Below are positions 6,680-19,021 of a stretch of 32,473 bases of DNA, piece by piece (position 1 is the stretch's first letter; each line of letters starts with the position of its first letter). This DNA comes from Roseateles toxinivorans. GTDB taxonomy: Bacteria; Pseudomonadota; Gammaproteobacteria; Burkholderiales; Burkholderiaceae_C. The stretch is taken from NCBI GenBank assembly GCA_945898095.1, contig CAMDHE010000049.1:1-32473 (forward strand), written 5' to 3'. The notes under the pieces were generated by a model that did no database searches, was not told the origin of the DNA, and saw only the letters and a program-made list of their open reading frames with translations. The position numbers were made by a program, and so were the translations under genes.

Positions 6680-6778
6680 TTATTGCTGACGCGGATCGAG
6701 CGCGTCGCGCAGGCCATCGCCGATCAGCTTGAATGACAACAGCAGCGCGAAGATCGCCAAGCCACCTACGAGACCGGA
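6680..6778 (-). pseudogene. C-terminal remnant of a DppC/OppC-type ABC transporter permease
   Basis: Read on the minus strand, this stretch encodes GLAIFALLLSFKLIGDG followed by LRDALDPRQQ and a TAA at 6680-6682. The ending GDGLRDALDPR is the well-known C-terminus of peptide/nickel ABC permeases of the DppC family. Upstream, at about 6778, the similarity ends; the frame runs on without a start into a TGA close to the end of the amidase gene. Only about 30 residues of a protein of some 280-300 remain. It is the downstream relic of the same operon as the amidase and the M20 peptidase fragment, suggesting that a peptide/amide uptake operon was deleted here. Confidence 0.65.
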
Positions 6779-6812
6779 CGCTGGCAGCTTGCCTGGCGCC
6801 GCTTGAAGAGCG

Positions 6813-8105
6813 TCATTCGTTTTTCAACCATTCATGCAGTTGATGGGCAAGCGCCAGCAGTGATTTGTCCTGGCCCCAGCGGCCGACCAGTTGCAGCCCG
6901 ATCGGCAGGCCTTGGCGGCCTTGGGTGAAGGGCAGATGCACGCAGGGCAGGCCGAGCAAGGTCCAGCCGCGGCAGAACACCGGGTCGCCGGTGGCGCTGA
7001 TGCCCGCAGGCGCCTCGCCGGTGGCGCTCGGCGCCAGGATCACATCGAAGCGGTCGAACAGCTCATCGGCCACGCGCTGCGCCGCAGTCGTGGCGACAAG
7101 ATCGCGCAGATGCTGGTCGCCGCCGATGGCCATGCCTTCATCGAACAGGGCCAGCAGCCTGGCGCTGAGTCGGTCCCGGTGCTGCACCCGCTCATGGCTC
7201 AAGGCCCGCGCCATCTCGAAAGCCATCACCGATTTTTGCAAAGCGACCAGGCCATTGAGCGCTGGTGGCAACTCGAGGTCGGCCAGGCTGGCATGAGGCG
7301 CCAGGCGCTTCACCGCCAGCTCCCAAGCCTGTCCCATATCAGCATCGGCGAGCTGCCATTCAGGCCCGCGGCATAGGCCGATGTTCGGTCTGAAGTCGGC
7401 TGGCAGGGCCTCGGGCATACGCATATCGCCGCTCAGCACCGCGCCGAGCAGGGTGACATCGCGCACGCTGCGGCCGAATCCGCCGATGACGTCGAGGGCT
7501 TCAGACAGGCTTTTCACCCCGGCGCGCGGCACCAGGCCGAGGCTTGGTTTGTAGCCGACCACACCGCAATAGGCGGCCGGCCGGATGATTGACCCGGCGG
7601 TCTGCGTGCCCAGCGCCAGCGGCAGCATGCAAGCAGCAACCGCGGCGGCCGATCCGCTCGACGACCCGCCGGGTGTATGCGGGCTGCCGGCCTGGCTGTG
7701 CGGGTTGACCGTGGGCCCGGGCTGGAAATAGGCGAATTCGGTGCTGACGGTCTTGCCCGGCAGCAAGGCGCCGGCCTCGCGGCATAACGCCACGACGGCA
7801 GCATCGGCCAGCGGTTGGTGCCCGGCATAAAGCGCCGAGCCATAGCCGGTTGGCATCCCAGTCGTATCGATCAGGTCTTTCACCCCCAGCGGCAGGCCAT
7901 GCAGCAGGCCGCGCAGCGGACCGGCGTCGAGCGCTCTGGCGTGCGCCAGCGCCGCGTCGGCGTCGAGATGGGCAAAGGCGTGGACCTCGGCTTCGCGCAG
8001 CTCGATCTGGGCTAGGCAGGCGCGCATCAGATCGACCGCGCTGATTTCGCGCCTCGCCAGCAGCGCTGCGGCTTGCCAAGCTTGCAACTGGTGCAGGTTT
8101 TTCAT
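6813..8105 (-). CDS. amidase-signature hydrolase
   Basis: A 430-residue amidase-signature enzyme that should hydrolyse a carboxamide to acid and ammonia in the cytoplasm. The Ser-cisSer-Lys triad is visible: Lys76 in PLGVKDLIDT, Ser148 in TPGGSSSGSAAA and nucleophile Ser172 in QTAGSIIRPA. The length is normal and the frame intact. I chose the ATG at 8103-8105, which overlaps the TGA of the M20 peptidase remnant (TGATG), rather than the adjacent TTG. That coupling shows it was the second gene of a minus-strand operon. Both operon partners are now broken, so its present expression and substrate are uncertain. Amide hydrolysis is secure; the specific substrate is not. Confidence 0.88.
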   Translation of the reverse strand: MKNLHQLQAWQAAALLARREISAVDLMRACLAQIELREAEVHAFAHLDADAALAHARALDAGPLRGLLHGLPLGVKDLIDTTGMPTGYGSALYAGHQPLADAAVVALCREAGALLPGKTVSTEFAYFQPGPTVNPHSQAGSPHTPGGSSSGSAAAVAACMLPLALGTQTAGSIIRPAAYCGVVGYKPSLGLVPRAGVKSLSEALDVIGGFGRSVRDVTLLGAVLSGDMRMPEALPADFRPNIGLCRGPEWQLADADMGQAWELAVKRLAPHASLADLELPPALNGLVALQKSVMAFEMARALSHERVQHRDRLSARLLALFDEGMAIGGDQHLRDLVATTAAQRVADELFDRFDVILAPSATGEAPAGISATGDPVFCRGWTLLGLPCVHLPFTQGRQGLPIGLQLVGRWGQDKSLLALAHQLHEWLKNE

Positions 8106-8325
8106 CAAGCGGTCCCGTTCCCGTCCTTGATCAGGTCCTTGAACAAGGTGGTGGCTTCAGCGATCCGGTCGACGCGGCAATATTCGTCGGTCTGGTGCGC
8201 CATCTCGGCTTGACTGCGCCCGAGGATTACCATCGGCGGGCCGCCGCGAGGCTGCCACGGAATTGATTGGCGTAAGGCATCAAGAAATTCTCGGTGAAAG
8301 GGAAATTGATAAACAACAGTGGCGA
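8105..8325 (-). pseudogene. truncated, frameshifted M20 (ArgE/DapE-type) peptidase
   Basis: The last 46 residues in one frame, GGPPMVILGRSQAEMAHQ then TDEYCRVDRIAEA, match the C-terminus of M20 metallopeptidases, where the AHQxDEYC segment carries a metal-binding His. In the normal GPG element the proline is replaced by Arg. Just upstream, the matching sequence appears in another frame (FPFTENFLMPYANQFRG, about 8257-8305), indicating a frameshift near 8250. The rest of the roughly 400-residue enzyme is gone. A longer frame up to 8476 is open but shows no family similarity. Its TGA overlaps the amidase ATG, so it once led the amidase operon. Confidence 0.65.
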
Positions 8326-8494
8326 TGGCGATTGTGGGGCCTTCCAACCCGGTTGGGTCAGACCAATTCTGGCGTTGCAAGTTCTGCGCCAACAACTCGC
8401 GTTCCCTTGCCGGGCGACAGTTACGGCAAGAAAGCATCGCCACAGCCAGGGGGAATGCACTAGGTTGATGCATCAATGCCCGCGATGGATGGCT

Positions 8495-9397
8495 TCAGGC
8501 CATCGGCGCAATGGCGCTGTCCGGGCGTTCGAAGACCTGGGCGAGGCAACTCAGGAATTCGGCGCACAAAGCCTGCTCGATGCGCTGGCGGGCATGGACC
8601 GAATAGACCCTGAATTCCACCGCCGGTTCGAAGCGGATTGCTTTCACCCGGGGCATCTGCAAGGTCCTGACCACCAGCGGGTTGACGACGCTGACGCCCA
8701 GGCCCATGCCTACCATCGTGCAGATGGTGGCCGCATAAGGCGTTTCGAGGTTCATGCGGCGGCTGCCAGGCTTGAATGCAGCGTCGACCTTGCTGCGGCT
8801 TTCGTCGCCGCTGGCCAGCGAAATGAATGATTCGCCGTCCAGATCCTTGGCCCTGATCAGTGGCTTCGATGCCAGACGGTGCTTTTCAGGAACGATGCAG
8901 AGTCCGTTTTCGCGGTACAGCAGCCGCTCCTTGACCTCTTGCAAATCGGGCACATAGGAAGCCAGACCGAAATCACAAAAACCGGAGGCAACCCATTTGC
9001 AGACTGTGGCCGAGTCGCTGGTGTGAACGCGGATCAGCACATCCGGGTGTGCGATGCGAAACGACTGGATCGCATGCGGCAGGACACCGATTGCCAAAGC
9101 CGGCGAGGCACCGATCCTGAGACCGCCCGTCCCCAAAGCCTTGATCGTGGTCGCAGCATCGCGGATATTGTGCAAGCCGACAAAGGTCCGCTCTACTTCC
9201 AAATGCAGGGCTTCTGCCTCGGGCGTTGGCACCAACCTGAGCCCGACCCTTGCGAACAGCTTGAGGTCCAGTTCGCGCTGCAACCTTGTGATCAGTCGGC
9301 TGATATTGGGCTGAGATGTATGCAGTTGTGCCGCCGACAAGGTCATCGACCGGGTCAGCATGACAGAGCGAAAGGCCTCGATTTGCTTGAAGTCCAA
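8495..9397 (-). CDS. LysR-type transcriptional regulator
   Basis: A 300-residue LysR-family regulator. The N-terminal winged helix-turn-helix spans residues 1-60 (FKQIEAFRSVML, SAAQLHTSQPNISRLI, LQRELDLKLFARV). The effector-binding domain runs from about 90 to 290 (TGGLRIGASPALAIGVLPHAI). The start is TTG at 9395-9397 with a GGGGTGA ribosome site just upstream. It is transcribed away from the lyase gene, with about 95 bp between the starts, the usual LysR arrangement. It therefore most likely controls the lyase/oxidase operon in response to the substrate or a pathway intermediate. The effector is unknown. Confidence 0.9.
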   Translation of the reverse strand: MDFKQIEAFRSVMLTRSMTLSAAQLHTSQPNISRLITRLQRELDLKLFARVGLRLVPTPEAEALHLEVERTFVGLHNIRDAATTIKALGTGGLRIGASPALAIGVLPHAIQSFRIAHPDVLIRVHTSDSATVCKWVASGFCDFGLASYVPDLQEVKERLLYRENGLCIVPEKHRLASKPLIRAKDLDGESFISLASGDESRSKVDAAFKPGSRRMNLETPYAATICTMVGMGLGVSVVNPLVVRTLQMPRVKAIRFEPAVEFRVYSVHARQRIEQALCAEFLSCLAQVFERPDSAIAPMA

Positions 9398-9457
9398 GAG
9401 ATCACCCCGGTCTGATGCTCCATATCAAAATTGCATGAAGCTTGAGAAAGTCGGTAT

Positions 9458-9486
9458 TTGACTGCATTTTCCTCGCTTGCGATACT
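9458..9486 (+). promoter_or_regulatory. sigma-70-type promoter of the lyase/oxidase operon
   Basis: TTGACT (9458-9463), a 17-bp spacer and GATACT (9481-9486) make a strong promoter match. The -35 lies inside GGTATTTGACTGCAT (9453-9467), a 15-mer found again at 15001-15015 before the dipeptidase gene. The expected transcript start is at about 9493, which coincides with the GTG start of the lyase. Confidence 0.6.
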
Positions 9487-9492
9487 GGTTTG

Positions 9493-11007
9493 GTGAACAA
9501 GTCAAAAGTAAGCCGCAGGCTGACCGAGTCCACGGCCCCCGAGGTGTGTGAACATATCTACGCGCCCCGCCTGGCGAGGGACTTTCCCTCGGGCTTTGAT
9601 TACCTCGGCGACATCAACCAGGCGCATCTGCTGATGCTGCACCGGGCGGGTCTGCTTTCTGATGAAGACGCATCCGGGCTTGCCCAGGCCCTGCTGCAGA
9701 TGGAAGCCGAGGGCGCCAGCGCGGTGCCGCTTGATCCGGCGCTCGAGGATGCTTACTTCAACTTCGAAGCCCAGCTGATGCGCTTGGCCGGGGCTCATCT
9801 GGGCGGCTGCCTGCACGTGGCCCGCAGCCGCAATGACATTCTGGCAACGCTGGACAGGATGCGGGCGCGCCAACTCGCCGTCAGCCTGATTGATGGTTTG
9901 TGTGCGGCCCGTTGCACCGCACTTGAGGGTGCGATCCGGCATGCGCATCTGGTCATGCCGGGCTATACCCATCTACAGCCGGCTCAGCCGATCACCTTTG
10001 GTTTTTATCTGCTGGGCCTGGCCGAAGCGCTCGGCCGGGACATCACGCGCATCCGGCAATTGCAAGCCGGTCTCGACCTTTGCCCGCTGGGCGCCGGAGC
10101 AATTGCCGGCACCTCGTTTCCGATCCTGCAGCAAGAAAGTGCCAGCCTGCTCGGCTTCAGCAAGGCTGCCACCCATTCGCTCGACGCCGTAGCTTCACGT
10201 GATTTCGCACTCGAATTGATGTCGGCAATGGCCATCGCCGGCATTGGTTCGAGCCGGATCGCCCAGGACTTCTATGTCTGGTGCACGCATGAGTTCAGTC
10301 TGGTGGATTTCCCGGACAGCGTGGCCGGTACCTCGAGCATGATGCCGCAGAAGAAAAACCCGGTGGTGCTTGAATATCTGAAGGGCAAGGCCGGCCATCT
10401 GGTGGGCCTGTTGATGGCCGCGATGGCGACGATGAAGGGCGTGAATTTCACCCATACCGGCGATGGCAGCCGAGAAACCATGCGCAGTTTATGGGAGGCG
10501 GGCGACGAATCGCTGCATGTCCTCAAGATGCTCGATCTGATCCTGCGCACGGCCATACCCAATGAAGAAGCGATGCTGCGTCGCGCCCGTGAGGATTTTT
10601 GTGCGGCCACGGATTTGGCCGATGCGCTGGTGCGAACTTCGGGCTTGTCGTTCCGCGAGGCCCACCATGTGGTGGGTGCCGTGGTCAGGTCTGCCATGAC
10701 CCGTTCGCTGGCTGCGCATCAGATCAGCTCGGAGATGGTCGACGAGGCCGCTTTGGCCCAGATCGGCCGACGTCTGGAGCTGGGCGATCAGGCGGTGCGC
10801 GATTGTCTGGACCCCGCCCGCAGCGTCAGCAGCAGAATATTTGGCGGCGGACCTGCGCCGGCCATCGTGCTGGAGCGAGCTGCCCTTTTGCTCAAGGAAT
10901 GCGCGCTCGAACAGCAGGCCAACCTTGAACGCAGCAATGCCTTCGCTCAGGCGCGATTTGAGCTGAAGCGATCGCTGCGCGCGCTGATCATCCCTGCCCC
11001 AGCTTGA
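9493..11007 (+). CDS. argininosuccinate-lyase-like C-N lyase
   Basis: A 504-residue member of the fumarase/argininosuccinate lyase superfamily, enzymes that eliminate fumarate from N-succinyl groups. HVARSRND at residues 108-115, PGYTHLQPAQP, and the flexible-loop signature GTSSMMPQKKN at 279-289 (catalytic Ser) are intact. It is somewhat longer than housekeeping ArgH. It is not beside arginine genes but first in an operon with a binding protein and an opine-oxidase-type dehydrogenase. A catabolic role such as that of EDDS lyase, a known relative acting on ethylenediamine-disuccinate, is therefore an inference worth testing. The GTG at 9493 opens MNKSKVSRRLTE, where family similarity begins. 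The longer frame from 9442 crosses the promoter and is unlikely. No ribosome site is visible. Confidence 0.82.
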   Translation: MNKSKVSRRLTESTAPEVCEHIYAPRLARDFPSGFDYLGDINQAHLLMLHRAGLLSDEDASGLAQALLQMEAEGASAVPLDPALEDAYFNFEAQLMRLAGAHLGGCLHVARSRNDILATLDRMRARQLAVSLIDGLCAARCTALEGAIRHAHLVMPGYTHLQPAQPITFGFYLLGLAEALGRDITRIRQLQAGLDLCPLGAGAIAGTSFPILQQESASLLGFSKAATHSLDAVASRDFALELMSAMAIAGIGSSRIAQDFYVWCTHEFSLVDFPDSVAGTSSMMPQKKNPVVLEYLKGKAGHLVGLLMAAMATMKGVNFTHTGDGSRETMRSLWEAGDESLHVLKMLDLILRTAIPNEEAMLRRAREDFCAATDLADALVRTSGLSFREAHHVVGAVVRSAMTRSLAAHQISSEMVDEAALAQIGRRLELGDQAVRDCLDPARSVSSRIFGGGPAPAIVLERAALLLKECALEQQANLERSNAFAQARFELKRSLRALIIPAPA

Positions 11008-11044
11008 CCCTCGCCCATCCCGCCACTGATCACAGGAGTTCCGC

Positions 11045-12019
11045 ATGAACACCATGACTTTTTGCAAAGCTGTTTCGTCCGTCCTGCTCTGCGCCGCAGG
11101 GAGCCTGGCATTCGCCCAGGACCTGCCGCCAGCGCCTATCAGGATGGTGGTCGGGTTCGCGCCCGGCGGGGCCAATGACGTCATCGCAAGACTCATTGCG
11201 ACGCCGCTGCAGGCACAGATCAAGTCGACGGTGATCGTCGAAAACAAGCCTGGCGGCGGCAGCACCGTCGCAACTGCCGAACTCGCGAAGGCGCCGGCGA
11301 CCGGGCAAATGCTGTTGCTCGGCTCTACAGGCGGTCAAGCAATCGCGCCAGCGATCTACGACAAACTTCCCTACGACCCGGTCAAGAACGTCCAGCCGGT
11401 CACGATGGTCGCCAAGTCGGCCATCGCCATCGTCGTCAACGATGCGTTGCCGGTCAAAAATGTGAATGAACTGATTGCCTATGCGAAGGCTAATCCCGGG
11501 AAACTGAACGTGGCTTCGCCAGGCAATGGCACCGGCTCGCACCTGGCGGCTGAGCTTTTCAAGAGCATGGCCGGTGTTGCCATGACCCATATTCCCTACC
11601 GTGGCGATGCGCCTGCGATGCAGGATGTGATGGGCGGTCAGGCCCAGCTGACTTTTGCCAGTCTGCCTTCCGCGATTGCCGGCGCACAGACCAATCGCGC
11701 CAGGATCATTGCGGTGACCAGCGCCAATCGCGTGCCGATGCTGGCCAGCACCCCGACGGTGATCGAATCCGGGCTGCCAGGTTATGAGGTGCTGACCTGG
11801 TACGGCGTCTTCACCACCGGCGGTACGCCGACGGCGGTCGTGAACCGTTTGGCTGCGGAAATCGGTCTGGTGCTGGCCCAAGCTCCAGTGCGCGAGGCGA
11901 TCAGCAAGATGGGCATGGAGGCCGCACCCTCCAGTCCGGAAGAATTCAGTCGGGTCGTCAACAGCGACATGGCCCGCTGGGGCGCGGTGGTGCGTTCAGT
12001 CGGCATCAAGGTGGACTGA
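11045..12019 (+). CDS. Bug/TctC-family periplasmic solute-binding protein 1
   Basis: A 324-residue tripartite tricarboxylate receptor (Bug) protein, which captures small carboxylates or amino acids in the periplasm. A signal peptide covers about residues 1-24 (cleavage after LAFA). The mature part begins with the typical PIRMVVGFAPGGANDVIARL, then IVENKPGGGS, HIPYRGDAPA and GLPGYEVLTWYGVF. A clear ribosome site, AGGAG, sits at 11035-11039 before the ATG. There are no TctA/TctB membrane partners in the window, as is common for these proteins in Burkholderiales. Its stop overlaps the next start (TGATG), so it is co-translated with the oxidase and probably binds the substrate of this pathway. 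Confidence 0.9.
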   Translation: MNTMTFCKAVSSVLLCAAGSLAFAQDLPPAPIRMVVGFAPGGANDVIARLIATPLQAQIKSTVIVENKPGGGSTVATAELAKAPATGQMLLLGSTGGQAIAPAIYDKLPYDPVKNVQPVTMVAKSAIAIVVNDALPVKNVNELIAYAKANPGKLNVASPGNGTGSHLAAELFKSMAGVAMTHIPYRGDAPAMQDVMGGQAQLTFASLPSAIAGAQTNRARIIAVTSANRVPMLASTPTVIESGLPGYEVLTWYGVFTTGGTPTAVVNRLAAEIGLVLAQAPVREAISKMGMEAAPSSPEEFSRVVNSDMARWGAVVRSVGIKVD

Positions 12020-13161
12020 TGGCCGATGCCGGCTTGAGCTCTGATTGCATCGTGGTTGGAGGTGGCCTGGTGGGCGCCTCGATCGCCTATGGCCTGGCGC
12101 GCTCGGGCGCCAGCGTGATCGTTCTTGACGAAGATGACAAGGCCTTGCGTGCCACCCGCGGGAACTTCGGCCTGATCTGGGTGCAGAACAAGGGCATCAG
12201 CATGCCGAGGTATTCGGCCTGGAGCCGGGATGCGGCCAGGCTCTGGCCAGGCTTTGCCGGACAGTTGTTGTCCGAGACCGGGGTCGACGTCAATCTGCAG
12301 CAACCGGGGGGCTTTTGCCTGTGCCTTTCCGAGGCCGAACTGCTCGAACGCGAGCAAAGCCTGCTTGCCATCCAGAAAGCCGTGAGCGGCGACTACCCCT
12401 TCGAAATGCTCGACCAGCAGGCGCTGCGCCAACGGCTCCCGGCGATCGGCCCTGAGGTTGTCGGCGCGAGCTTTACACCGATGGATGGACATGTGAACCC
12501 GCTCAAGCTCTACCTTGCTTTGCTGCAGGCCTGCCGGCAAATGGGTGTGCGGATCTGTCATGCCGCCCATGCCGGAAAGATCGAAACCTCGGATGACAAG
12601 GGTTTCCGCCTGAGTTGCGGCCCGGTCAGCTACCGGGCCGGCAAGATCGTGCTGGCTGCCGGGCTGGGTAACCGGGCCTTGGCCGAGCAGGTCGGCCTCT
12701 ACGCGCCGGTGGTGCCGACCCGAGGCCAGGTGCTGGTGACCGAGCGGCTGCGAAAATTTCTCGATTACCCGACCAACAAGCTGCGCCAGACGGATGAGGG
12801 CGCCGTGCATATCGGCGACTCGGTCGAGGATGTCGGCTTTGACGACCGCACCACCACCGATGTGCTGCAGTTCATGGCACGCCGCGCGGTCAAGTCATTT
12901 CCTTTGCTGCGGGATGTCAACTTGGTGCGTGCCTGGGGCGCATTGAGAGTGATGACGCCCGACGGGTTTCCCCTTTATGAGGAATCAATTCTTCACCCCG
13001 GCGCCTATGTAGTTACCTGCCACAGCGGCGTGACGCTTGCAGCCGCGCATGCGCTGCGGGTCGCGCCCTGGATTGCTGGCGGCTCGGTTCCAGCCGAGAT
13101 CAGCGAGTTCACTTCCGCGCGCTTCAGTCAGGGCCTGGCCCGTCCGATGTACGTCAATTGA
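12019..13161 (+). CDS. FAD-dependent amine/amino-acid dehydrogenase subunit (HcnC / OoxB / DadA-like)
   Basis: A 380-residue flavoprotein of the DAO family. The FAD-binding Rossmann motif is IVVGGGLVGASIAYGLA near residues 11-27, ending with the acidic VLDED at 35-39. Later segments such as VPTRGQVLVTE, RAWGALRVMTPDGFPLY and the C-terminal HSGVTLAAAHA match the D-amino-acid/opine oxidoreductase family. With the two following genes it forms the three-component set known from hydrogen cyanide synthase, octopine/nopaline oxidase and heterotrimeric hydroxyproline dehydrogenases. This subunit oxidises the C-N bond of the substrate. It overlaps the upstream binding-protein gene by one base and ends 6 bp before the [2Fe-2S] subunit. 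Confidence 0.85.
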   Translation: MADAGLSSDCIVVGGGLVGASIAYGLARSGASVIVLDEDDKALRATRGNFGLIWVQNKGISMPRYSAWSRDAARLWPGFAGQLLSETGVDVNLQQPGGFCLCLSEAELLEREQSLLAIQKAVSGDYPFEMLDQQALRQRLPAIGPEVVGASFTPMDGHVNPLKLYLALLQACRQMGVRICHAAHAGKIETSDDKGFRLSCGPVSYRAGKIVLAAGLGNRALAEQVGLYAPVVPTRGQVLVTERLRKFLDYPTNKLRQTDEGAVHIGDSVEDVGFDDRTTTDVLQFMARRAVKSFPLLRDVNLVRAWGALRVMTPDGFPLYEESILHPGAYVVTCHSGVTLAAAHALRVAPWIAGGSVPAEISEFTSARFSQGLARPMYVN

Positions 13162-13167
13162 GCCCTT

Positions 13168-13500
13168 ATGAGTGAAACCCCAGCCTTCAGAACCTTGTCG
13201 GGAACCGCAGCAAGCCGGGTCGAAATTTTCTTCGATGGCCGGCCGCTGCAGGTACCAGCCGGCCAATCGGTTGCGGCGGCCTTGCTGGTCGGGGGGGTGC
13301 AGATCTTCCGGGAGACGCCGGTCTCCGCAGCGCCGCGCGGCCCCTATTGCATGATGGGTGTCTGCTTTGAATGCCTGCTGGAAATCGATGGCCTGCAGAA
13401 CCGCCAGGCCTGCCTGACTACGGTGCGCGAAGGCATGAAAATCCGCACGCAAATGGGTGCGCGCATGCTCGCAGCCGGGGGAGTTGTTGATGCTGGATGA
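13168..13500 (+). CDS. [2Fe-2S] subunit (HcnA / small opine-oxidase-like)
   Basis: A 110-residue ferredoxin-like protein. The four cluster cysteines are Cys61, Cys66, Cys69 and Cys82 in CMMGVCFECLLEIDG...RQAC, the pattern of the small [2Fe-2S] subunit of HcnABC-type dehydrogenases. It should pass electrons between the two flavin subunits. It lies between them and overlaps the next gene by 11 bases, so the three are one translational unit. Confidence 0.88.
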   Translation: MSETPAFRTLSGTAASRVEIFFDGRPLQVPAGQSVAAALLVGGVQIFRETPVSAAPRGPYCMMGVCFECLLEIDGLQNRQACLTTVREGMKIRTQMGARMLAAGGVVDAG

Positions 13501-14872
13501 GCCGATCGACCTCGCCATCGTCGGTGCCGGGCCGGCCGGCATGGCTGCTGCCTTGACCGCGCGCTCGGCGGGTCGGTCGGTCGTGGTTCTCGACGAACAG
13601 GCCGCACCGGGCGGGCAGATCTATCGCTCGGTGACATCGGCAACGGCCGGGCGCTGCGATGTCCTGGGCCCTGACTATGCTGCCGGCCGCGAGTTGGCGC
13701 GTGACTTCGAGGCCAGCGGCGCGCGCCATGAATACGGCGCTGCGGTCTGGCAGGTCACGCCAGAGGGTCGGATCCATTACCTGCAGGCGGGCCAGTCCCG
13801 GATGATTGAACCCGGCAAGGTCATCCTTTGCACCGGCGCCATGGAGCGGCCCTTCCCCATTCCCGGTTGGACCTTGCCTGGGGTGCTGACGGCCGGTGCT
13901 GCACAGATCCTGCTCAAGACTGGCGATGTCGTGCCTGCCGATCCGGTGGTGCTTGCAGGTTGTGGACCCCTGCTGTACCTGCTCGCCTGGCAATATCTGC
14001 GCGCCGGTGTTCCCATCAAGGCCTTCATCGAGACGACGAGTGCGGCCGACTATCTGCGGGCGCTGGCGAAGTTGCCTGCTGCGTTGATTCAGTGGCGCTT
14101 GCTGGCCAAGGGCCTCAGCCTGAAAGCGGCGTTGCATAGAAGCGGCGTGCCGATTTTCAGTGGCGCCCGGAAGCTGAGGATCGCGGGCGGCAAATCAGCT
14201 GAGGCGATCGAATTCCGCGCAGGCAACCGGCAACACCGGGTCGAAGCGCGGGTCTTCTTGTTGCACCAAGGGGTGGTGCCGAATACCCAGATCACCTGGT
14301 CATTGCGCGCCAGCCATGTCTGGGATCAGGCGCAGCTTTGCTGGACGCCGCAGGCTTCAGTTGCTGGCGAACTGATCGGTTTGCCAGGCATCTTCATTGC
14401 CGGAGACGGTGCCGGCATCATCGGTGCCGAGGCCTCAATGCTGAGCGGCCGGTTGGCCGCGTTGGCCGCGCTGCGAGCGCTGCAGGGCAGCCATGGCGAT
14501 GCGCAATTCGAGAGTGAAGCCGCAGCCTTGTTGCGCGACCTGCGCCGCGCGACGGCAGCGCGGCCCTTTCTTGACGCGCTGTATCGGCCCAGAGCCGAAT
14601 TCCGGATTCCGGCAGATGAGGTCATCGTTTGCCGCTGCGAAGAAGTCACGGCCGGGGAAATACGCAAGCATGTCCGGTCTGGCTGCCTCGGGCCGAATCA
14701 GTTGAAGTCATTCACAAGATGCGGAATGGGCCCCTGCCAGGGACGGCAATGCGGGCTCACAGCGACCGAGATCATCGCCGCCGAACGTGGTATGGCGGCC
14801 AGTGAAGCGGGCTACCAAAGGGTGCGTCCGCCGATCAAGCCGATCTCGCTCGGCGAGCTTGGTGGGCTATGA
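13490..14872 (+). CDS. FAD/NAD(P)-binding oxidoreductase subunit with BFD-like [2Fe-2S] domain (HcnB / OoxA-like)
   Basis: A 460-residue flavoprotein. The FAD motif is AIVGAGPAGMAAALTA near residues 8-24, with APGGQIYR after it. LCTGAMERPFPIPGW is typical of the HcnB/OoxA family. GIFIAGDGAGIIGA is the second FAD contact. The C-terminal BFD-like domain has Cys381 and Cys383 (VCRCEEV), then Cys411 and Cys416 (RCGMGPCQGRQC), enough for one [2Fe-2S] cluster. The ATG at 13490 has GGGGGAG just upstream and overlaps the previous gene by 11 bases; the frame itself is open from a GTG at 13457. It completes the three-part dehydrogenase; its electron acceptor is probably the respiratory chain. Confidence 0.87.
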   Translation: MLDEPIDLAIVGAGPAGMAAALTARSAGRSVVVLDEQAAPGGQIYRSVTSATAGRCDVLGPDYAAGRELARDFEASGARHEYGAAVWQVTPEGRIHYLQAGQSRMIEPGKVILCTGAMERPFPIPGWTLPGVLTAGAAQILLKTGDVVPADPVVLAGCGPLLYLLAWQYLRAGVPIKAFIETTSAADYLRALAKLPAALIQWRLLAKGLSLKAALHRSGVPIFSGARKLRIAGGKSAEAIEFRAGNRQHRVEARVFLLHQGVVPNTQITWSLRASHVWDQAQLCWTPQASVAGELIGLPGIFIAGDGAGIIGAEASMLSGRLAALAALRALQGSHGDAQFESEAAALLRDLRRATAARPFLDALYRPRAEFRIPADEVIVCRCEEVTAGEIRKHVRSGCLGPNQLKSFTRCGMGPCQGRQCGLTATEIIAAERGMAASEAGYQRVRPPIKPISLGELGGL

Positions 14873-15009
14873 ACAGCGCGCCGAAAGTCATGCTGATTTT
14901 TTGCAGCCCTTGCTCGCGTCAAGCTGAACTGTTTCGGGCAGAACAGACCTCAAGACAGGCAGCGAACCCATACCGATTGAGTATCGAGCCACCCTCGCTT
15001 GGTATTTGA
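14869..15009 (+). other. short open frame coupled to the oxidase (possible gene remnant)
   Basis: An ATG at 14869 overlaps the TGA of the previous gene (ATGA) and opens a 46-residue frame beginning MNSAPKVMLIFCSPCS and ending with the TGA at 15007-15009. I recognise no family. The coupling suggests it is the start of a further operon gene whose body was lost, or a chance frame. It fills most of the 206-bp gap before the dipeptidase. Confidence 0.25.
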
Positions 15010-15035
15010 CTGCATGGAATTGCGAGCCATAGAAT
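15006..15035 (+). promoter_or_regulatory. promoter of the M19/Bug unit, sharing the lyase promoter sequence
   Basis: TTGACT (15006-15011), an 18-bp spacer and TAGAAT (15030-15035) form a likely sigma-70 promoter. Its -35 is embedded in GGTATTTGACTGCAT (15001-15015), identical to 9453-9467 at the lyase operon. Common control by the LysR regulator is inferred. Confidence 0.55.
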
Positions 15036-15078
15036 TGTTTCAAACCGCCAAAACTGATAATTTGAAGGAAACCCGGAC

Positions 15079-16095
15079 ATGAGCGATTTTTTCGCAGATG
15101 CGCAACGGATCATCCAGGATTCCATGGTCATTGACAGCCTGGGCGGGGCGGTGGTTCATCCCACGCCTTATGTTGCCGAGGGTACTTACGAGGAGAAGGT
15201 GCTTGGCTATGGCTGGAGCGCCATGAACGCCTGCCTGGTGTCCGAGCCCACCTATAACGGCACCTTCGATGAAGTTCTTAGGGCGATGTACGAGAACTTC
15301 CTTTACTTCGAGATGAGCCCGCAGGTGCGCCATGTCGAATCAGCCGCCGATCTGCTCGCGGCCAAGGCCGCAGGACAACTCGGCGTGTTCTTCGGCGTGC
15401 AAAGCGGCAGTTGCCTGCAGCAGGACAGCACCCGACTGCGCCTCCTGCACAAGCTGGGCCTGCGGGTCTTGCAACTGACCTATATGGAGCGCAACGCCAT
15501 TGGCGATGGTTGCCTGGAGCCTGCCAACCAGGGCCTCAGCCATTTCGGCATCCAGGTGGTGCGCGATTGCAACCGACTCGGCGTGCTGATTGACTGCTCG
15601 CATGTCGGCATCCAGACCACGCTCGATGCAGCCCGGCATTCTTCCCAGCCGATCGTGGTTTCCCACTCGGCGGTGCGCGCGCTGGCTGACAACCCGCGCT
15701 GCGTGACCGATGAGCAGATGCGCGCTGTCGCGGACAAGGGCGGCACAATCGGCATCACGCCTTATGCGCCCTTCATCCGCACTGACAGGCATCCGACGCT
15801 TGACGATTACCTCGAGCATTTCGACTACGCGATCGATCTGCTCGGTGACGATCATGTGACCGTGGCAACCGATATGTTCGATGGCAAGACCAAGGCCAAC
15901 TGGGCGACGCCCTGGTCTTACCCTGAGATCACGCGCGGCGCGCAGTACGGCAACCGGCGCGTCGAAGGCTTCTCGCACAAGTCGGATCTGGTCAACTTCA
16001 CCGCCGGTTTGCTGCGCCATGGCCATAGCGAGTCAACGGTCAAGAAGGTCCTGGGCGAAAACTTTTTGCGCGTGGTGACAGCAGTCTGGAAATAG
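15079..16095 (+). CDS. M19 membrane-dipeptidase-family protein with altered metal site
   Basis: A 338-residue protein of the renal (M19) dipeptidase family. Family landmarks are LQLTYMERNAIGDG, GLSHFGIQVVRDCNRLG, IDCSHV with His175, VVSHSAVRAL with His196, and VATDMFDG with Asp265 and Asp268. The usual N-terminal HxD metal pair is absent: the segment reads MVIDSLGGAVVHP at residues 16-28. The bridging Glu is Gln108 (FFGVQSGS). It may therefore bind only one metal or have a different reaction. A good AAGGAAA ribosome site precedes the ATG. It is followed 18 bp later by a second Bug protein and has its own promoter resembling that of the lyase operon. A hydrolytic step on a dipeptide-like substrate is possible but not shown. 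Confidence 0.8.
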   Translation: MSDFFADAQRIIQDSMVIDSLGGAVVHPTPYVAEGTYEEKVLGYGWSAMNACLVSEPTYNGTFDEVLRAMYENFLYFEMSPQVRHVESAADLLAAKAAGQLGVFFGVQSGSCLQQDSTRLRLLHKLGLRVLQLTYMERNAIGDGCLEPANQGLSHFGIQVVRDCNRLGVLIDCSHVGIQTTLDAARHSSQPIVVSHSAVRALADNPRCVTDEQMRAVADKGGTIGITPYAPFIRTDRHPTLDDYLEHFDYAIDLLGDDHVTVATDMFDGKTKANWATPWSYPEITRGAQYGNRRVEGFSHKSDLVNFTAGLLRHGHSESTVKKVLGENFLRVVTAVWK

Positions 16096-16113
16096 TCTGA
16101 AGACGGGGGAAGC

Positions 16114-17103
16114 ATGACGAAATTCATCAAGAGTTGCCTGGCAGGGCTGGCCCTGTCGGTATGCAGTCTGGCTGCGCAGGCGCAGACTGCGGGCGGATCG
16201 GCCTATCCCAACCGCCCGATCCGGATGGTCATGCCCTTTGCCGCCGGGTCAGGGTTCGACGCGATCGTTCGCATCACCTGCCAGAAGATGAGCGAGGAAC
16301 TTGGCCAGCGCATCATTGTCGACAACCAGGGCGGCGCGGGCGGCCTGATCGCTTCGATGGCTGTGGCCAAAGCCCCTTCCGATGGCTACACGCTGATTTT
16401 TCATTCGGTGTCGACTGCCGTGGTGTTGGCCGCGACCTATACCAATCTGAAGTACGAGCCGATGTCCTTCGTACCGATCTCGCTGATTTCGGATTACGCG
16501 CTGGTGATGGCAGTTCACCCTGACGTACCGGCAAAAACGGTGGCGGAATTCTCGGCCTTGCTCAAAGCCAAGCCCGAGTTTTACAGCTATGCATCGTCCG
16601 GCGTTGGAACCGGCCTGCATCTGGCCGCCGAGCTTTACAAGATGAACGCGGGTGTCGAGATCCAGCATGTGCCGTACAAGGGCACAGGTCCGGCCGAGCT
16701 TGACCTGCTGGCCGGGCGGACCCAAATGATGTTTGCAGCGGTTCCTTCTTTCGCAGGCAAGATCAATGCGGGCAGCTTGCGCGCTCTGGCGGTGACGACT
16801 TTGACCCGGTCACCAGCGCTGCCCGGCGTGCCGACGATGAACGAAAGCGGCCTGGCCGGTTACAACGTCCCGTTCTGGAATGGCATCTTTGCGCCGCCGG
16901 GAACCCCCAGGGCAATCGTCGACAAGATTGCCGCCGCTGCCGCGAAGGCGATGCGGGATCCGGACACCATGGCCAAGTTGAAGAACCTTGGCGCCAATCC
17001 GATTGGCTCGACACCGGAAGAACTCGACAAGTTCTGGAACGAGCAACTGGGGATCTACGTCAAGATTGCTGAAAAAGCCGGCGTGCGGATGTCGCCGCCC
17101 TGA
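16114..17103 (+). CDS. Bug/TctC-family periplasmic solute-binding protein 2
   Basis: A 329-residue Bug receptor with a signal peptide over about residues 1-24 (cleavage after LAAQAQ or LAAQA). The mature part starts PNRPIRMVMPFAAGSGFDAIVR, followed by IVDNQGGAGG, HVPYKGTGPAELDLLAGR and GLAGYNVPFWNGIFAPPGTP. GGGGGAAG precedes the ATG. It is only a distant paralogue of the first Bug protein in this cluster, so it may bind another ligand or another form of the substrate. No TctAB permease is present. Its gene ends the catabolic block; the next 70 bp hold no gene. Confidence 0.9.
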   Translation: MTKFIKSCLAGLALSVCSLAAQAQTAGGSAYPNRPIRMVMPFAAGSGFDAIVRITCQKMSEELGQRIIVDNQGGAGGLIASMAVAKAPSDGYTLIFHSVSTAVVLAATYTNLKYEPMSFVPISLISDYALVMAVHPDVPAKTVAEFSALLKAKPEFYSYASSGVGTGLHLAAELYKMNAGVEIQHVPYKGTGPAELDLLAGRTQMMFAAVPSFAGKINAGSLRALAVTTLTRSPALPGVPTMNESGLAGYNVPFWNGIFAPPGTPRAIVDKIAAAAAKAMRDPDTMAKLKNLGANPIGSTPEELDKFWNEQLGIYVKIAEKAGVRMSPP

Positions 17104-17173
17104 AGCCAACACTTTATTCAGCAGACCTGGCCACCCTGTCAATGGTTCAACTTGGCCTTGTTCCTGGCCCAGG

Positions 17174-17530
17174 TCAAACCAGCAGCGACTTGGCCAGCAT
17201 CGCATGCACGCCGCGATGGGTGTTGACGGTCTGGGTAACGCGGAAGTCGACCGCCAGGCTGCACAGCATATAAGCATCCTCGCGTGACAACCCTCCGCGC
17301 TCGCCGAGCAGCGCGATCATGTCGCGCAAGGCGATCGCCAGGCATTGATCGAGGTCGGGGTCCATGCCCATGGTGATCCAGTGGGTCGGCGTCTCGCCGC
17401 GCGGATAGGCCAGCGCCGGCGCTTCGCCCTGGCGTTTGTGCAAGGTCAGTTCGAACTCGCCACGCAAGGCCAGCAAGCTTTCGGGGCTGGCCTGACCTTG
17501 GCATGCATAGACCTGTTGCCGGTTCGAGCC
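17174..17530 (-). pseudogene. C-terminal remnant of an acetamidase/formamidase (FmdA/AmdA family)
   Basis: The minus-strand frame ending at 17174 encodes VYACQGQASPESLLALRG, then TPTHWITMGMDPDL and REDAYMLCSLAVDFRVTQTV, closing with GVHAMLAKSLLV. This is the C-terminal quarter to third of the acetamidase/formamidase family, enzymes that release ammonia from formamide or acetamide. An in-frame stop at about 17531-17533 ends the upstream side and no start is present. The typical protein is over 300 residues, so most is lost. The cut lies between the catabolic block and the mqsRA toxin-antitoxin genes, marking one edge of the toxin-antitoxin island. Confidence 0.7.
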
Positions 17531-17570: not shown

Positions 17571-17978
17571 TCAAGCGGCGCGAACCTCATCCAAGAGCTC
17601 CGGGTGGCGATCCAGCAGCCTGAGCAGTTTTACCAAGGCCAATGAAGGCTTGGTCTTGCCATTCTCGTAGCGCGAAAACGCATTGACGCCGCCGCCAAAA
17701 ATTTCAGCCGCCTCGCGCTGGTCGAGGGCGAGCTTCTTGCGTATTCCCGAGATGAATTCCGGGTCGACGATCGCAGCGTTGGTTTGCTTGTTGAAAGCCA
17801 TCATCAAAGCGCTGGTGCGAACCGACTCGGCCAGATCAAGTACGGCCTCATCACAGGCAGGGCAATAGTTGCCCACCACGGCCGGGAGGATGGTCGACTC
17901 TCCCTTGTAGCTGTAAGGCATGTCTCGGGTGTCAGGCACCAGTTTTGCGCCACCGCAGGCCGGGCATTTCATCTTCAT
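17571..17978 (-). CDS. mqsA: MqsA-type antitoxin and autorepressor
   Basis: A 135-residue protein matching the two-domain MqsA antitoxin. The N-terminal zinc-binding domain has Cys5, Cys8, Cys39 and Cys42 (CPACGG and YCPACDE), the spacing known from E. coli MqsA. The C-terminal half is an Xre-type helix-turn-helix (ISGIRKKLALDQREAAEIFGGGVNAFSRYENGKTKPS). It neutralises MqsR and binds the operon promoter. Its ATG overlaps the stop of mqsR by 4 bases, giving the usual toxin-first order of this system. It is read toward the formamidase remnant. Confidence 0.92.
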   Translation of the reverse strand: MKMKCPACGGAKLVPDTRDMPYSYKGESTILPAVVGNYCPACDEAVLDLAESVRTSALMMAFNKQTNAAIVDPEFISGIRKKLALDQREAAEIFGGGVNAFSRYENGKTKPSLALVKLLRLLDRHPELLDEVRAA

Positions 17979-18271
17979 AGCTCCTTGAACGACACGATCA
18001 GCACATCATCAACAACCGTGAGCTTCAGATAGATCTCGCCGGCTGAGGTGCGGGGTCGATACAGGTCTTGCCAAACCCGATGATCGCCATGCGTGGTCAT
18101 GCTCTTGTAAAAATCCGAAGGGACCAAAGCCTTGACGACGTCGACGATGGCGAGCATGTCAAACCCGATGGCCGCAGCGCCTACCAACGCTGACTTTGTT
18201 GCGCGAACTTTGCCTTCACCGGTCAGCCTTTTAACCACCGACAACTTGCAATGGGGACGCGCCTTCTCCAT
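17975..18271 (-). CDS. mqsR: MqsR-type mRNA interferase toxin
   Basis: A 98-residue protein that aligns with E. coli MqsR from its first residues (MEKARPHCKLSVVKRL) to its last (DDVLIVSFKEL), with SDFYKSMTTHGDHRVWQDLYRPR in between. MqsR is a RelE-fold ribonuclease that cleaves mRNA, mainly at GCU. The full length suggests it is functional. The ATG at 18271 begins only 7 bases past the -10 box, so the message is probably leaderless; no ribosome site is visible. Confidence 0.92.
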   Translation of the reverse strand: MEKARPHCKLSVVKRLTGEGKVRATKSALVGAAAIGFDMLAIVDVVKALVPSDFYKSMTTHGDHRVWQDLYRPRTSAGEIYLKLTVVDDVLIVSFKEL

Positions 18272-18387: not shown

Positions 18388-18723
18388 TCAGCGGTCGGGC
18401 TGGGTTTGTGCTTGCTTTTGGGTCTGCACCCAGCTTTTCAATGCATCGTTGATGCGGGTTTGCCAACCCGGCCCGGTTGCCTTGAATGCGTCCAAAACAT
18501 CCGGGTCAATACGCATATTCAGCGTCGGGCGCTTTACCGCCACGGCAGGCCTGCCTCGTCCTCGCTTGACGCTTGTCTGTTGCCAGTAGGCCGACGTGGC
18601 GGCGGCATCATTGGGGTCGTAGGGGCCATCGGCGGCGTTGTGGGTTATGGGCGCATCAGTAGCGGCCTCATGCTTGACACGCGCCCAATCGGTGGCCTTC
18701 GGCTTAGCGGATGTTTTTGACAT
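18388..18723 (-). CDS. brnA: BrnA-type antitoxin
   Basis: A 111-residue protein starting at the ATG at 18721-18723 (MSKTSAKPKATDWARV). The central stretch GRGRPAVAVKRPTLNMRIDP and the following DVLDAFKATGPGWQTRINDAL form the ribbon-helix-helix DNA-binding and dimerisation domain of BrnA antitoxins. It neutralises BrnT and represses the shared promoter. Its start lies inside the end of brnT (20-base overlap). A longer frame upstream exists but runs through brnT and is not the real start. Confidence 0.87.
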   Translation of the reverse strand: MSKTSAKPKATDWARVKHEAATDAPITHNAADGPYDPNDAAATSAYWQQTSVKRGRGRPAVAVKRPTLNMRIDPDVLDAFKATGPGWQTRINDALKSWVQTQKQAQTQPDR

Positions 18724-18982
18724 ACAGCGTTCTTTCCTGTTTGGATGCCCGGCGCATTGAGATAGCTCGTATCTCGTCGGGGTCGCGCAGCACATAAACC
18801 AGCACCAGCACCACGCCCACCGCTTCCACCAAGGCAATGTCAATCATCCGGGCCTCGCTGGTCTTGGCGGATTCCAGCGTCAATTTGTTGGGAGCATTGA
18901 AAACCAGCGGCGCATCGACCAGTGAAATTCCATGCTTTTCGATGTTGGCGCCGTCCTTGCCTGGGTCGAATGTGAATCGCAT
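18704..18982 (-). CDS. brnT: BrnT-type ribonuclease toxin
   Basis: A 92-residue protein of the BrnT family, RelE-like ribonucleases that halt translation. MRFTFDPGKDGANIEKHGISL at the N-terminus and IRAISMRRASKQER at the C-terminus are the family's conserved ends, the latter carrying the Arg, Ser and Glu residues expected. I chose the ATG at 18980-18982; the longer frame starts at a TTG that is the -35 box of the promoter. The gene is followed by overlapping brnA. Confidence 0.87.
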   Translation of the reverse strand: MRFTFDPGKDGANIEKHGISLVDAPLVFNAPNKLTLESAKTSEARMIDIALVEAVGVVLVLVYVLRDPDEIRAISMRRASKQERTLYVKNIR

Positions 18983-18992
18983 CAATGCATTT

Positions 18993-19021
18993 ATTGTATT
19001 GGCATCAATTTGAGGCGTCAA
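18993..19021 (-). promoter_or_regulatory. brnTA promoter
   Basis: On the minus strand TTGACG (19016-19021), exactly 17 bases, then TACAAT (18993-18998). The transcript would begin about 4 bases before the brnT ATG at 18982, leaving no room for a ribosome site. BrnA is expected to act here. Confidence 0.62.

Follow-up and report, generated by a model that had tools for sequence, protein, structure and literature searches.

We analysed a window of 32,473 nucleotides (nt) from Roseateles toxinivorans (contig CAMDHE010000049.1 of assembly GCA_945898095.1, contig 49 of the 4.7 Mb genome), in which a LysR-type regulator stands back to back with a gene for a fumarate-lyase-superfamily enzyme. The lyase belongs to a clade apart from ArgH (9493..11007, forward strand, in an open reading frame (ORF) that opens at 9442; PF00206 and PF14698) and heads a five-gene unit on that strand (9493-14872). 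It is followed by a Bug/TctC binding protein (Bug1, 11045..12019; PF03401, 216 bits), an OdhB/OoxB/HcnC-like flavin adenine dinucleotide (FAD) subunit of the DAO fold (12019..13161; PF01266, 198 bits, with GxGxxG and Arg-X-Trp), an OdhC/HcnA-like [2Fe-2S] subunit (Fer2, 13168..13500; PF13510, 100 bits, with C-X4-C-X2-C-X12-C) and an OdhA/OoxA/HcnB-like subunit (OoxA, 13457..14872, with a probable start near 13490; PF07992, PF17806 and PF04324). A second forward unit (15079-17103) holds a variant of the M19 amidohydrolase family, with its HxD and bridging-Glu positions replaced (15079..16095; PF01244, 260 bits), and another Bug/TctC protein (Bug2, 16114..17103; PF03401, 225 bits). ORF translations and a Pfam scan show that all of these genes are intact and belong to the families that a preliminary description had given them, including the M19-Bug pair as a second unit. 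That description had placed the left edge of the block at the LysR gene (8495..9397, reverse strand; PF03466 and PF00126); the genes it listed are real, but the block reaches further left, to an amidase-signature hydrolase downstream of LysR and in the same direction (6813..8108, reverse strand; PF01425, 232 bits).

Only 37 nt separate the lyase from Bug1, whose ATG is preceded by AGGAG, and the stop codon of Bug1 overlaps the start of DAO by one base (TGATG, 12017-12021), a layout from which we infer co-transcription of the lyase unit. The M19 gene starts 206 nt past the end of the dehydrogenase. A MESK motif marks the start of most lyase orthologues, and the codon aligned with it here is at 9493, so the lyase probably starts at that GTG rather than at the TTG at 9442.

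The gene set was sought in 18 genomes of the genus (lyase at E<=1e-100, M19 at E<=1e-60), and three of them, the window genome and two sister species (G801 and G803), carry both the lyase (98-100% identical) and the M19 protein (99-100%). The block from 6811 to 17470 aligns to both sister species at about 95-96% DNA identity, with the G803 copy split over two contigs. Against the two sisters the ratio of nonsynonymous to synonymous changes (pN/pS) is 0.08-0.12 for the amidase, 0.10-0.17 for LysR, 0.06-0.07 for the lyase, 0.04-0.09 for Bug1, 0.07-0.09 for DAO, 0.13-0.17 for Fer2, 0.20-0.23 for OoxA (where one of three comparisons spans only 33 codons), 0.00-0.02 for M19 and 0.12 for Bug2. A remnant of an M20 metallopeptidase, its C-terminal part only (8105..8476, reverse strand; residues ~78-118 match M20 C-termini), gives 0.44-0.67, on few changes, and serves as an internal control for the nine genes at 0.00-0.23, all of which are under purifying selection. 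On the other flank lies a truncated acetamidase/formamidase (17174..17476, reverse strand; a weak PF03069 match of 13 bits, below the cut-off), whose counterparts in the sister species are longer, at 315 and 318 residues (L198, 16561-17508; L200, 3634-4590). Beyond the cluster the window also carries the toxin-antitoxin pairs MqsR/MqsA (17571-18271) and BrnT/BrnA (18388-19021).

The three dehydrogenase genes had been likened to HcnABC and OoxAB, and the comparison holds. Gene order B-C-A and a set of motifs are reported for OdhBCA (PMC4575208, seen in part), and the trio, in beta-gamma-alpha order, fits OdhBCA/OoxAB in that order and in nearly all motifs. GGGLVG and RAW (Arg-X-Trp) are found in the beta subunit, the C-X4-C-X2-C-X12-C motif in gamma and GAGPAG in alpha. 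The alpha subunit also has a Fer2_BFD domain that passes the Pfam cut-off, and its CRC and CGMGPC lie 27 residues apart, where the motif printed in the part of PMC4575208 seen is C-X-C-X15~20-C-X4-C. Relatives of the DAO subunit (52-61% identity, E<=1e-105) occur in 12 others of 399 family genomes. By the crude ORF choices used in all loci fetched for the lyase and dehydrogenase surveys, which miss genes, these 12 loci show OoxA in 12, DAO in 11 and Fer2 in seven. A Bug gene precedes the trio at three of them, a shared gene set that we take for an ATP-binding cassette (ABC) transporter, by likeness to the annotated locus L128, stands at eight, and at one (L146) no transporter was identified. 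A small ORF occupies the place of RidA at eight of the 12, with RidA annotated in L128, L129, L192 and L193. On two Agrobacterium plasmids (L192, 5063-15162; L193, 5036-15152) the trio and RidA are found with MmgE/PrpD, an amidase and ABC genes, the beta subunit being 53-54% identical to ours. At one of the 12 loci an ORF at the locus edge matches the lyase at 35%.

In the M19 protein the HxD region reads DSLGG and the bridging Glu reads Gln, with both SH motifs kept. We take the binuclear metal ligands of the family to be HxD, Glu, His and His, and the protein thus appears to be a variant with an incomplete metal site. The loss of HxD and the retention of both SH motifs are shared by ten relatives from other genomes, which are 31-34% identical to it (an eleventh aligned row, L162, at 24% identity and in the wrong reading frame, was left out). 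Its fold, predicted without an alignment, has a mean predicted local distance difference test score (pLDDT) of 35.7.

Identity and neighbours of the lyase

PF00206 matches six places in the genome. One of these proteins, on contig C32, has the ArgH motif YNKDxQEDK, which we take to be the arginine-side motif, and is 36% identical to the window lyase; another ArgH-like paralogue adjoins a Bug gene on contig 99 (L041, 8873-11377). The window lyase, which reads FTHTGDGSRETMR in place of this motif and carries FTHTGDGSRE in that region, is consequently not the only ArgH candidate of its genome. We surveyed the motif in 122 lyase rows (24 chosen lyases, EDDS lyase, which acts on ethylenediaminedisuccinate, and 97 from other fetched loci); it is present in 91 of them and in none of the 16 rows of the clade that holds the window lyase. 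A tree was built from 48 of the rows, with a warning from the program of long branches (L054 and G068b); in it a split with support 99/98 separates 20 rows including the window lyase from 28 that include ArgH and EDDS lyase. Support is 100/98 for the ArgH group and 89/74 for the window clade, and EDDS lyase forms with L055 and L097 a clade at 100/100 that leaves the window lyase outside.

EDDS lyase is the best match in both sequence and fold, with ArgH structures next (model pLDDT 89.1). The catalytic motifs of the superfamily are kept (SSMMPQKKNP loop, YTHLQ and ARSRND). Of six residue positions of EDDS lyase named in the part of PMC12363623 seen, the window lyase keeps three (R112, N113 and N288) and has H177, V308 and H338 (521-residue numbering) in place of Q159, D290 and Y320. 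Because the motifs and the first three residues are retained and the other three replaced, the predicted active site appears to have an intact fumarate-releasing end and an amine end of its own. ArgH was rejected as the identity of the lyase, given the other ArgH in the genome, the absent motif and the separation in the tree; EDDS lyase was rejected given the 100/100 clade and the three replacements. We hold with considerable confidence that the protein is a C-N lyase other than ArgH.

The best 80 of at least 586 relatives were kept for the survey of neighbourhoods. LysR and Bug genes flank the lyase in Cupriavidus (L044, L046, L047, L125 and L126), in G262 (L037) and in Acidovorax (L050), with Bug coming after the lyase at several of the Cupriavidus loci, and the LysR upstream of Cupriavidus orthologues is 42-61% identical to that of the window; in L038 LysR lies downstream, and an Asp/Glu racemase follows the lyase and Bug. 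In two Cupriavidus genomes the lyase is present in a further copy, which has the same operator and a LysR gene to itself (L187, 5438-6943; L190, 5531-7075). Alphaproteobacterial members of the clade stand with amino-acid ABC genes, annotated as such in L123 and L124 and recognised by clustering in L045, L048 and L049. Asparaginase is present in the lyase clusters L123, L124 and L125, and as a fragment in L038 (PF00710 at only 1e-5). An MmgE/PrpD protein is present in L048, L123 and L124, its best structural match being iminodisuccinate (IDS) epimerase in L123 (1e-59) and cis-aconitate decarboxylase in L048. DAO-type oxidases are found in L045 and L048 (Pfam) and L049 (clustering), and Neoroseomonas (L052) carries a trio like that of the window (Fer2 54%, OoxA 47%, beta subunit 25%) at about 3.5 kb from a lyase that is more distantly related. 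Several annotated orthologues in the clade are labelled argH in public records.

The clusters in Agrobacterium (L123, 3361-13441) and Cereibacter (L124, 98-12603) combine asparaginase, ABC uptake, MmgE/PrpD and the clade lyase with SIS/PfkB proteins that resemble fructoselysine kinase, which may point to a route in which a lyase acts on adducts of sugars and asparagine. Fructosyl-asparagine was rejected as the substrate in R. toxinivorans, with no SIS/PfkB protein among the window proteins scanned.

The candidate operator

Upstream of the lyase unit lies a putative operator and promoter (9421..9467, forward strand) of the form CATA-N9-CATG, N18, ATTTGAC (+TGCAT), with a -10-like GATACT at 9481-9486. 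A second candidate site precedes M19-Bug2 (14969..15015, forward strand; CATA-N9-TATC, N18, ATTTGACTGCAT). The 15-mer GGTATTTGACTGCAT is identical in the two, at 9453-9467 and 15001-15015, so that the two units share a promoter element, and it occurs nowhere else in the 4.7 Mb genome; a shuffled window would be expected to hold 0.03 occurrences at up to two mismatches, for a 15-mer that was chosen after being seen. The sister species retain both sites, but not the -10-like region that goes with the one before M19. ATTTGAC and the lyase start are 30 nt apart in the window (9462-9493) against 49-76 nt at the 41 of 53 sites with a MESK-type start, which leaves little room for a ribosome site, so the lyase message may be leaderless.

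Reading the lyase promoters of relatives gave the pattern YATA-N9-YAT-N19-ATTTGAC. It occurs at 16 sites in nine of 10 genomes or records; in the genus to which C. pauculus (G300) belongs, 39 of 60 genomes carry it, at 47 sites, with no match to the reversed pattern in either set; Acidovorax has ATTTGCC and is hence missed. The operator and the lyase thus recur together in many Cupriavidus genomes. With identical sites counted once (a C. pinatubonensis plasmid recurs as L125, L191 and G835), there are 53 distinct sites, of which 47 precede a lyase, three an amidase-Bug pair, one an asparaginase, one an asparaginase fragment (in G068, without a BLAST match in the site survey and identified from clustering and PF00710 evidence) and one M19-Bug2. 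A LysR/amidase unit with a related operator is present in three Cupriavidus-group genomes (L188, 4620-8045, and L189, 4580-8027, both with Bug, and L227).

We also scored sites with a matrix built from 11 other lyase promoters, leaving out that of the window. The window lyase site scores 37.0, the C. pinatubonensis asparaginase site 51.4 and the G068 fragment 33.2, and an untrained match at 30.8 precedes an operon of a pyridoxal-phosphate enzyme, ABC genes and lyase in Methylobacterium (L045, 6335-11497). The M19 site scores 13.5, second-best in the window, and two amidase sites score 17.7 and 12.9; the best of 20 Markov controls reaches 7.8. On these sequence comparisons, the lyase and the amide hydrolases appear to share a LysR-type operator, and M19-Bug2 is probably under the same one, although its site is weak. 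We consider it likely that M19-Bug2 belongs to the regulon of the lyase.

Proposed pathway and alternatives

We lean, with some reservation, towards a LysR-controlled regulon for the uptake and breakdown of an opine-like N-substituted asparagine or aspartate; for this class of substrate taken by itself, our confidence is evenly balanced. The Bug proteins would pass the substrate to a permease of the tripartite tricarboxylate type (none was seen in the cluster), and an amide hydrolase would free the carboxylate to give an N-substituted aspartate, a step suggested by the shared operators. The hydrolase would be the amidase, the M19 variant or both here, and an asparaginase or amidase in relatives. 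The lyase would then cleave the C-N bond, as the chemistry of its family and its catalytic motifs suggest, releasing fumarate and leaving an amine or amino acid from the presumed substrate, and the OdhBCA-like FAD/[2Fe-2S] enzyme might oxidise the resulting amino or imino acid or cleave the parent secondary amine directly. As operators stand before the lyase and also before amide hydrolases of two kinds, amide hydrolysis would come before C-N cleavage, which suggests the order N-substituted asparagine, N-substituted aspartate, fumarate plus amine; in this role M19 would make a third kind. That the trio works in the same pathway as the lyase seems to us reasonably probable.

Several results weigh against this reading. 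In the sets searched, no genome outside the genus showed the combination of lyase, trio and M19, and within the genus it was found only in the window genome and its two sisters. The preliminary description had proposed searching for a conserved neighbourhood of lyase, three-subunit dehydrogenase and M19; the full set stands in the two sister species, but elsewhere the trio keeps other transporters and lacks a clade lyase, so that for the sets searched a neighbourhood conserved across genomes was rejected, which goes in part against that description. Neither M19 nor a clade lyase was found within 8-18 kb at the 12 nearest trio loci of the 399 family genomes, and in the 16-row clade the 15 loci besides the window showed no clustered Fer2 or OoxA relatives within 7-25 kb. 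At E<=1e-70 the 398 other family genomes gave no M19 orthologue, and among the matches listed for a phylum sample of 398 genomes, our own included, none exceeds 41%. The lyase locus L043 has LysR with no Bug match next to the lyase, and L130 (Caballeronia) has neither beside it and a DcuC-type carrier instead. The Bug tree places neither Bug1 nor Bug2, and the attempt to assign them to units by phylogeny was abandoned for lack of resolution. A promoter scan of 6700-17300 returned two sites, both containing the shared 15-mer, where 2.1 are expected by chance. The M19 site matches the pattern at the anchors only, and as the final G of YATG was dropped so that it would match, its match is not independent evidence; scores of 13.5-20.1, equal to that of the M19 site or above it, occur at five unrelated stretches of the fetched loci, so the matrix score of this site alone would not convince. 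The amidase sites differ in their inner sequence and go with a distant LysR (24-29%), and 21 of the 60 Cupriavidus-group genomes have no site.

An alternative is that two unrelated modules lie side by side with substrates of their own, the lyase with a Bug protein on one hand and an OdhBCA-type amino acid or opine dehydrogenase with M19-Bug2 on the other. Each module is found elsewhere without the other, Bug1 could fit either, and the M19 operator is weak. We nevertheless think such a juxtaposition unlikely, in view of the overlapping reading frames of Bug1 and DAO, the 15-mer with two genomic copies that precedes both units, the block retained in three species, and the DAO-type oxidases in lyase clusters of other lineages together with the L052 trio near a more distant lyase. 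A lyase for aminopolycarboxylate chelators of the iminodisuccinate or EDDS type, drawn from synthetic chelators or microbial metallophores, is a less probable explanation still. The preliminary description had suggested EDDS, metallophores or N-(dicarboxyethyl)-amino acids, and the EDDS lyase as top sequence and fold match agrees with it, as do relatives that pair the lyase with a protein like IDS epimerase; IDS degradation requires an epimerase and a C-N lyase, as the title of a reference in PMC7347537 (seen in part) states. Its position outside the EDDS-lyase clade and the H, V and H at three EDDS-lyase residues do not agree, the MmgE/PrpD protein of L048 is closer to cis-aconitate decarboxylase, and the asparaginase partners, together with the 39 Cupriavidus-group genomes (of 60) that have lyase sites, suggest an older natural substrate. 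The asparaginase and amidase partners point, as far as gene content can, to N-substituted asparagine or aspartate and not to chelators or metallophores in particular.

Two further alternatives seem to us very improbable. In one, the enzyme would release fumarate from adducts of the S-succinyl or another non-nitrogen type, 2-succinocysteine being an example. The superfamily has members that act on sulfur compounds (XcbC/XcbD matches), and in Advenella an L-asparaginase and a putative argininosuccinate lyase are more abundant on mercaptosuccinate, according to the part of PMC5373536 seen, a likeness by annotation only; asparaginase, amidase and amino-acid dehydrogenase partners would suit nitrogen compounds better. 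The other, to which we give slightly less credence again, is a second argininosuccinate lyase serving argininosuccinate catabolism. The window lyase does pass the NCBIfam argH model (TIGR00838) with 365.7 bits against a cut-off of 279.5, but the arginine-side motif is absent from its whole 16-row clade, which stands apart from ArgH in the tree, and its neighbours are ill-suited to arginine catabolism.

Returning to the N-substituted asparagine or aspartate regulon, a more specific form of it would be an undescribed and widespread non-oxidative route for succinamopine-like, asparagine-derived opines, in which an amide hydrolase and a dedicated ArgH-family lyase yield fumarate together with a free amino acid, perhaps of the D form. 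The amino acid would be consumed by the OdhBCA-type enzyme or a racemase, with a single LysR and a precise operator in control across much of Cupriavidus. We offer this as a speculation, and a doubtful one. If the true substrate is an opine, bacteria beyond Agrobacterium would consume opine-like compounds through fumarate release and not oxidation; if it is a chelator, the clade would supply new C-N lyases for use in biodegradation and in asymmetric synthesis, in which EDDS lyase is already used (PMC12363623, seen in part). In either case a probable catabolic lyase family is hidden under the biosynthetic name argH, and the operator is a cheap and sharp handle for the members of the regulon and hence for the substrate.

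Comparison with known systems

ArgH-like lyases with other substrates (EDDS and IDS) and OdhBCA are already known. A few searches of open-licence literature gave no description of the lyase clade, its operator or the gene combination, and those aimed at the combination turned up nothing but proteomics of another organism; the gene set, the constraint on it, the placement of the lyase outside ArgH and EDDS lyase and the shared operator are purely computational results. The M19 protein of PDB 2i5g, presumably PA5396, has the same Gln for the bridging Glu as the window protein, whereas the ten fetched relatives that resemble it differ by their low identity and their other operator context.

The succinamopine region of pTiEU6, as far as PMC6733357 was seen, holds an opine dehydrogenase trio, an asparaginase, a LysR and, further on, mmgE; it differs in oxidative cleavage and ABC uptake, and the part of its description seen gives no fumarate-releasing lyase. 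OdhBCA/OoxAB/NoxAB (PMC4575208, likewise seen in part) share with the window trio the B-C-A order, the FAD motifs, the gamma [2Fe-2S] motif and Arg-X-Trp, whereas the window trio is preceded by lyase and Bug, has a longer alpha Cys spacing and, as far as the window proteins were scanned, has neither an opine synthase nor RidA beside it. The IDS epimerase and C-N lyase of Agrobacterium tumefaciens BY6, likened by description only, recall the clade lyases of L123 and L124 that adjoin MmgE/PrpD (with IDS epimerase as the best match in L123), while the window differs in having no MmgE/PrpD among the 20 proteins scanned with Pfam. EDDS lyase of Chelativorans sp. BNC1 (PDB 6g3d-6g3i) belongs to the same superfamily (31% in Foldseek), and the window lyase shares with it R112, N113, N288 and the SSxMPQKKN loop; the two differ in forming separate clades and in the three residues replaced by H, V and H.

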